Made by a program: the position numbers and the translations under genes
NCBI RefSeq assembly: GCF_023264895.1
Contig: NZ_JAHFUY010000016.1
Span: forward strand, 1-64,000
Direction: 5' to 3'
Length of the DNA: 64,000 nucleotides
DNA from: Herbiconiux sp.
GTDB taxonomy: Bacteria > Actinomycetota > Actinomycetes > Actinomycetales > Microbacteriaceae
Notes under the pieces: generated by a model
Databases searched by the model: none
Told to the model about the DNA's origin: nothing
Seen by the model: only the letters and a program-made list of their open reading frames with translations
Part shown: positions 27,312 to 27,775 of the stretch, in pieces
Layout: each line of letters opens with the position of its first letter
How positions within the stretch are numbered: the stretch's first letter is position 1

Positions 27312-27626
27312 TCAGTGTAGGAGCTTCAGGCCCACGACACAAGCGACGATGCCGAGCACGAGCAGCATCTTGACGATCGAGAACGACTCCCCGCCGAAGG
27401 CCATGCCGTAGCCCACGGTGAGCGCGGCCCCGATCCCGACCCAGACGGCGTAGCCCGTGCCGACCGGGATGGTGCGGAGGGCGAAGGCGAGACCGGCCAT
27501 GCTCGCCAGGAGGCCGCCGGCGAAGATCACGGTCGGCCAGAGCTTGGTGAAGCCCTCCGAGCGGCCGAGGGCGGTGGCCCAGACGGCTTCGAGAACACCG
27601 GATGCGATCAGGATGATCCAGGACAT
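27312..27626 (-). CDS. Small multidrug resistance (SMR) protein, probable guanidinium exporter Gdx/SugE
   Basis: A 104-residue four-helix SMR transporter working as a dual-topology homodimer that exchanges protons for a cationic substrate. The essential glutamate is Glu13 in SGVLEAVWA, and GFTKLWPT after helix 1 matches the SugE/Gdx subgroup, as do TGYAVWVGIGAA and GESFSIVKM in helices 3 and 4. Gdx proteins export guanidinium, and a guanidine-III riboswitch directly upstream makes that assignment strong. AGGAG lies 7-11 nt before the ATG. Single gene, unlike the paired SMRs seen after some of these riboswitches. Confidence 0.93.
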   Translation of the reverse strand: MSWIILIASGVLEAVWATALGRSEGFTKLWPTVIFAGGLLASMAGLAFALRTIPVGTGYAVWVGIGAALTVGYGMAFGGESFSIVKMLLVLGIVACVVGLKLLH

Positions 27627-27649
27627 GACTGACTCCTACGTGGTCAGTC
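27627..27649 (-). promoter_or_regulatory. Ribosome-binding-site hairpin of the guanidine switch
   Basis: GACTGAC (27649-27643) can pair perfectly with GTCAGTC (27633-27627), which abuts the ATG. The loop carries AGGA and the stem its final G, so the hairpin would hide the ribosome binding site AGGAG. Its 5' strand overlaps the aptamer 3' strand, giving two exclusive folds. Confidence 0.6.
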
Positions 27650-27682
27650 TTGTCGCTCTCCGGGTACTGCGCCCTCGTCCGG
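27643..27682 (-). ncRNA. Guanidine-III (ykkC-III) riboswitch
   Basis: On the minus strand, in order, CCGGACGAGG (27682-27673), GTACCCGG (27667-27660) and GACAAGAC (27654-27647) match the invariant blocks of the guanidine-III aptamer as I remember it from the Thermobifida fusca crystal-structure RNA. The two CCGG blocks can form P1. The pseudoknot between CAGT (27669-27666) and ACTG (27648-27645) has only four contiguous pairs here, shorter than in that RNA. It lies directly before the ribosome binding site of an SMR gene of the Gdx type, the standard target. Confidence 0.85.
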
Positions 27683-27683
27683 A

Positions 27684-27698
27684 GGCCGCTCTGCGGCC
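27684..27698. other. Short GC hairpin next to the riboswitch
   Basis: GGCCGC-TCT-GCGGCC: a 6-bp perfect stem, one base from the aptamer 5' end on the minus strand. It may insulate the aptamer fold or end read-through from the YyaL gene. Confidence 0.45.
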
Positions 27699-27775
27699 TT
27701 GACTCCATTCTGGCAGAGCTGCCTGATCAAGGCCCGTGCACGAGCGGGTCAGCCTGCTCAGTCGGGTCAGCCGGC

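Follow-up and report, generated by a model that had tools for sequence, protein, structure and literature searches.

A guanidine-III riboswitch on the minus strand of the window, by which we mean the whole 64,000-nucleotide stretch of DNA analyzed, very likely serves a guanidinium exporter gene as a translational ON switch. In the absence of guanidine, a toxic compound, the aptamer 3' end (GACAAGAC plus UGAC) would pair with GUCAGUC-A-UGUC, which would confine the Shine-Dalgarno sequence to a hairpin loop and its closing pairs, hold the start codon in a helix and make initiation poor. With guanidine, those bases would be engaged in the ligand-binding triplex and in the pseudoknot helix P2; the hairpin would open and the exporter would be made. 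The class, its ligand, its gene and ON switching by release of the Shine-Dalgarno sequence were already published: passages of PMC5696562 and PMC12186494 describe guanidine-III riboswitches as ON switches exposing the ribosome-binding site (RBS), an exposure that the former terms probable given the region's tendency to be structured. Added here are comparative support for translational control by guanidine-III and a specific expression platform that can be tested, in a class described as having a "less well established" functional mechanism at structure solution (in a passage of PMC5696562). Computation in this work established the identity of the aptamer, the kind of gene behind it, two mutually exclusive pairings and a match between the two strands across relatives.

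Identification of the aptamer

Infernal returned a match to RF01763 (Guanidine-III) at 27702-27640 of the minus strand with 53.8 bits (gathering score 36; E 2.5e-8), the significant covariance-model hit that the first-pass annotation had proposed as its test. The three invariant blocks from which that annotation had recognized the class were located in the order it gave, upstream of a Gdx-type SMR gene, as CCGGACGAGG at 27682-27673, GTACCCGG at 27667-27660 and GACAAGAC at 27654-27647 of the minus strand, and the conserved core ACGA, GUACCC and GACAAGAC follows the order expected of Guanidine-III members. RF01763 was the sole match in an Rfam scan of the 64-kb window at gathering scores, and the source genome (168 contigs searched; completeness 92.06) contains one Guanidine-III match. 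The whole aptamer (ykkC-III; 27640..27702) starts 20 bases upstream of the interval annotated earlier because the Rfam model includes a 5' hairpin preceding the core, with stem AGGCCGC/GCGGCCU and loop AGA, located at 27683..27699 of the minus strand from the Rfam consensus structure and with an energy of -12.0 kcal/mol when folded alone. The element is confirmed as a guanidine-III riboswitch aptamer, and this copy presumably binds guanidine.

Helix P1 (27660..27682, minus strand) was assigned by position in the Rfam consensus and in the T. fusca structure (from a passage of PMC5696562) as four pairs between CCGG at 27682-27679 and CCGG at 27663-27660, with ACGAGG and GUACC standing between the two strands; the minimum-energy fold of the isolated 27660..27682 stretch did not form it. 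The complementarities of both P1 and P2 are present in the window, as would suit an H-type pseudoknot, and 20 bases separate GACAAGAC from the start codon of the Gdx-type SMR open reading frame, which places the aptamer in a 5' UTR position. The element shares core, P1 and pseudoknot P2 with the T. fusca guanidine-III riboswitch (5NWQ), whose ligand has likewise been proposed to expose the RBS when it binds (passages of PMC5696562), and, as in other members of the class, stands directly 5' of an SMR gene. Guanidine-II (mini-ykkC) shares the ligand, is associated with similar genes and is a predicted translational ON switch according to passages of PMC12186494, but its fold differs from that of the window element, and RF01068 (Guanidine-II) had no match in the 64-kb window at its gathering score.

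Distribution and sampling

The element was found in 13 of 16 genomes of the window's genus, in all 13 before an SMR start, and in the wider samples RF01763 matched 125 of 249 family genomes and 144 of 297 order genomes (all counts at E 0.001 or better; the family and order samples passed stricter filters, which lose weak matches). For comparative analyses we assembled 204 loci, 118 among the matches listed in a collection scan and 86 best genome-search matches, which do not amount to a census and may overlap by more than the repeats removed. Four loci (L155, L170, L175 and L201) lacked the exact core pattern; from the 200 core hits, 10 without an assigned start codon and seven repeats were subtracted, giving 183 leaders. 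Folding tests used 163 of these, excluding 20 whose start codon follows the core by over 28 bases. The leaders are a non-random sample with common ancestry, for which the p values given below are uncorrected. The leader of L007, a locus of the same family, is identical from core through start codon to that of L056, a named Okibacterium locus, and Okibacterium belongs to Microbacteriaceae. The exact core pattern was also seen outside Actinomycetota before an SMR-like start (L033, L041, L057 and L062), the hosts being Corallococcus, a Phycisphaeraceae MAG, a Deltaproteobacteria MAG and Legionella norrlandica.

The pseudoknot helix P2

By complementarity, P2 (27645..27669, minus strand) joins CAGU at 27669-27666 with ACUG at 27648-27645. 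Its four contiguous pairs (U-A, G-C, A-U and C-G), followed by G.A and C.C, agree with the earlier count; the suggestion drawn from that count, namely that this may be a weaker or ion-dependent variant, found no support as a special trait of the window, as 12 of the 13 genus leaders have four contiguous pairs (the remaining one has five) and 45 of the 183 leaders have four or fewer. Three contiguous pairs were counted in 14 leaders, four in 31, five in 95, six in 2, seven in 18 and eight in 23. Judged from these counts, a short P2 is a habit of the clade and usual in the window's genus. Thirteen leaders of the GACT class extend P2 by three or five pairs past one bulged 3'-side base, an extension that pair counting did not find in the window. 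In T. fusca, by contrast, P2 has seven pairs (12-18 with 35-41), and the distance from the end of the riboswitch to the RBS is given as 16 nt (passages of PMC5696562), whereas the window's AGGAG starts 7 bases after P2 and its RBS hairpin reuses the core and the 3' strand of P2.

The downstream SMR gene

The gene following the aptamer (27312..27626, minus strand; ATG at 27626-27624) encodes a 104-residue Gdx (guanidinium exporter)-type SMR transporter, as judged from profile and structure matches and from residues. Among solved structures, 6wk5 matched best (69.8 bits), followed by 8vxu (67.9), with EmrE-type entries at 38.7 bits and lower. We take 6wk5 and 6wk8 to be Gdx-Clo, although the record itself names the SMR family only; on this assumption, the residues E13, W16, S42, Y59 and W62 are common to Gdx-Clo and the window protein. 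Counted in the translation, these five are the residues by which passages of PMC7695847 recognize Gdx proteins, and W16 is described there as conserved in Gdx and replaced by glycine or alanine in Qac. The best of the 21 NCBIfam families listed was the SugE equivalog NF008512, whose score of 84.7 bits lies below the cut-off of 126, and the protein is therefore called Gdx-type rather than SugE. We regard the product as Gdx-type and guanidinium export as its putative function. In a number of family genomes (L240-L254) the riboswitch precedes two adjacent SMR genes, an arrangement that suggests a heterodimeric exporter. The next gene downstream in the window (26983-25796) is RtcB-like, with scores under the NCBIfam cut-offs.

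Candidate transcript start and mRNA stability

Across the 183 leaders, TANNNT motifs peaked at -34 to -31 from CGGACGA (12, 11, 21 and 17 occurrences). From its position, we infer a candidate -10 element in the window, CAGAAT at 27707..27712 of the minus strand with TGC before it, which is not itself a TANNNT motif but lies at -31, inside the peak of its relatives. If CAGAAT is the -10 element, transcription would begin near 27700, where the 5' hairpin lies, and such a start would suit the role of RNase E reported for the class. Further 5', TGATCAGG (27740-27722) is exact in 10 of the 13 genus leaders; it contains the palindrome TGATCA, is preceded by a TGCNC element and has a spacing unlike that of a -35 element (by reading).

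The main control might lie in mRNA stability, with the bound aptamer near the 5' end keeping RNase E from scanning and the RBS hairpin making a secondary contribution, an account that we find possible but unlikely. RNase E protection by guanidine-III has been reported (PMC12186494, in a passage citing Richards and Belasco 2021), and the candidate -10 element would have the transcript begin with the aptamer. Such protection gives no reason, however, why the aptamer's 3' strand should match the start region, as described below; it can operate alongside a translational mechanism.

An RBS hairpin built on the aptamer 3' end

Translational control by the aptamer would act through a hairpin at 27627..27649 of the minus strand, in which GACUGAC (27649-27643) pairs with GUCAGUC (27633-27627). 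This pairing beside the start codon, noticed in the first-pass annotation, proved to be a stem of 7 bp without mismatch that encloses AGGAG and runs up to the ATG, and was supported by folding and strand tests. The Shine-Dalgarno sequence AGGAG (27633..27637, minus strand) lies six bases 5' of the start codon. The RBS hairpin and P2 both use ACUG, and the two folds are therefore mutually exclusive.

The segment from GAC to AUG of the window had an energy of -10.6 kcal/mol. With the 5' strand kept constant, a fold this stable arose in 1 of 200 linker shuffles (0.005), and shuffling of the 16-nt linker retained GTCAGTC in 196 of 200,000 cases. The excess for the whole leader was modest, with a stability 2.3 sd above that of dinucleotide shuffles. 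The exact 3' strand of the window hairpin was absent from the 12 other genus leaders, that of L008 being one base off, and at least seven genus leaders (L004, L012, L014, L017, L019, L021 and L022) have instead an inner CCAC/GUGG stem around the Shine-Dalgarno sequence (structures by reading); hairpin energies across the genus ranged from -5.5 to -14.2 kcal/mol. The theme of the genus, an RBS in a hairpin built on the aptamer 3' end, is thus retained while its pairs change.

Such a hairpin could also be incidental, if common GTC-ATG contexts and a G+C-rich leader supply the complementarity. Consistent with this, the hairpin matched or beat the best 5% of linker shuffles in only 60 of 163 leaders, and GTC at -3 to -1, present in 117 of 183 leaders with an aptamer compared with 10 of 258 background genes (starts set by an in-house Shine-Dalgarno rule, not by annotation), turned up likewise in 9 of the 23 SMR genes lacking an aptamer (p 0.025 against the 117 of 183). 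GTC is therefore partly a habit of these genes, and its enrichment, weakened by the aptamer-less control, was dropped as main evidence for the hairpin. The aptamer-less set comprised five first genes of SMR pairs and 20 further genes (initially 3 of 5 and 8 of 20 with GTC) minus L257 and L263, both with GTC, which were removed for a Guanidine-II match and a sub-threshold Guanidine-III match, respectively. L257 is an order SMR gene without a Guanidine-III hit, and its Guanidine-II match lies at 148-194 of the minus strand (33.3 bits, gathering 32). L242 and L249, first genes with weak aptamers, are not among the five, and at least G347, G416, G079, G094, G108, G123 contig 115, G165 and G178 are outside the set. 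Second genes of SMR pairs served poorly as a further control, most of them overlapping or adjoining the first gene's stop codon.

Matching of the aptamer 3' strand to its own start region

In the 163 short leaders, the 5' and 3' parts of the same leader paired with a mean of -7.40 kcal/mol, compared with -6.30 kcal/mol (sd 0.157) for swapped parts, and 0 of 2000 swapped-strand permutations reached the own-pair mean, in a folding model that represents neither pseudoknot, triplex nor ligand. An incidental hairpin would not account for the persistence of this matching once GAC and the last three bases were removed, with z -4.8 (0/5000 permutations) in 90 dissimilar leaders and z -2.8 (18/5000) in 26. 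Split by class, most of the signal came from GACG leaders; in the GACT class, that of the window, matching was clear and significant only with 82 or 73 leaders, borderline with 39 thinned leaders (311/3000 permutations for the whole segment and 85/3000 for the trimmed one), and showed no excess with 11 thinned leaders. Over all classes, the aptamer 3' end fits its own start region better in energy than those of other leaders, and this holds in the thinned sets too.

A possible start-codon lock by the invariant core

The 7-bp stem noted previously stands, but in predicted folds the helix probably runs further, over the start codon and into the invariant core. This extended lock (27622..27654, minus strand) pairs GACA at 27654-27651 with UGUC at 27625-27622, of which UG belongs to the start codon and UC to codon 2, and is continuous with the RBS hairpin across an A.A mismatch (27650/27626), with predicted energies of -15.5 and -15.2 kcal/mol when a wider stretch was folded. 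The start codon is paired with GACA in 11 of the 13 genus leaders, L009 and L010 having a shifted register (by reading).

Pairing between GACA and the start codon was predicted for 118 of the 163 leaders in their own context, compared with 417 of 1630 chimeras (26%) carrying start regions of aptamer-less SMR genes and 290 of 1630 (18%) carrying those of other genes; this excess also argues against an incidental hairpin. Start regions from other riboswitch leaders retained the pairing in 1008 of 1630 chimeras (62%), and much of it is therefore common to these regions. With 26 dissimilar leaders, the pairing was predicted in 17 of 26 own leaders and in 75, 38 and 95 of 260 chimeras with aptamer-less SMR genes, other genes and other riboswitch leaders, respectively. 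Any AUG supplies two of the four outer lock pairs, and the remaining two need UC in codon 2. Codon 2 starts with TC in 96 of 183 leaders with an aptamer compared with 1 of the 23 aptamer-less SMR genes (Fisher p 7e-6), in 18 of 258 background genes and in 3 of the 20 long-linker leaders. GTC and the codon-2 TC were not associated in the short leaders, both being present in 62 of 163, as the separate counts of 108 and 93 predict.

These data led us to a reading that we hold to be evenly balanced between true and false: in most actinobacterial guanidine-III riboswitches with short leaders, GACAAGAC would have a dual role, forming part of the guanidine-binding core and triplex region when bound and an anti-start strand on GUC-AUG-UC when unbound, and the genes would be adapted by GUC before the start and often by a serine (UCN) second codon, so that the start codon and first coding bases would be part of the riboswitch. 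If so, the base conservation of the core would reflect both ligand binding and start-codon locking, and the double use would affect how guanidine-III reporters and mutants are read. Neither comparative support of this kind nor a start-codon lock by the invariant core was found in the literature searched, a search that did not extend to the primary binding and RNase E papers, and we make no claim of priority.

Accessibility of the Shine-Dalgarno sequence and start codon

In the free window leader, the bases of AGGAG were unpaired with predicted probabilities of 1.0, 0.63, 0.43, 1.0 and 0.02, and the U and G of the start codon with 0.025 and 0.000; with much of AGGAG in the hairpin loop, the start codon is thus hidden better than the Shine-Dalgarno sequence. 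When the bound state was mimicked by holding the core unpaired in the folding model, the start codon opened (0.97, 0.59 and 0.60), and the values for AGGAG became 0.23, 0.11, 0.02, 0.09 and 0.96, the first four bases being less accessible because AGGA pairs with UCCU in codons 2-3 (about -4 kcal/mol), a pairing that the ribosome may open easily. The earlier proposal that guanidine takes up ACTG and thereby frees the RBS is supported: class, gene and direction of switching agree with the covariance model, the published statements on the class and the strand-swap tests, with the qualification that only the start codon, and not the Shine-Dalgarno sequence, became more open in the modeled bound state. 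How strongly and in which direction expression responds, and the order in which the RNA folds as it is transcribed, are inferred.

The modeled pairing of the Shine-Dalgarno sequence in the bound-state mimic would also fit an incidental hairpin, which we judge improbable given the strand matching and the chimera results above. Translational control remains the preferred reading. Control by a transcription terminator, known for Guanidine-I and -IV riboswitches (from a passage of PMC12186494), is scarcely credible here, as the stem covers the RBS and start codon and is followed by no U run (by reading).

A separate observation concerns SMR genes without an aptamer, 7 of 20 of which (L255, L256, L265, L267, L268, L272 and L273) carry GTAC...GTAC-like palindromes within 60 bases 5' of the start (by reading), possibly a repressor operator replacing the riboswitch.
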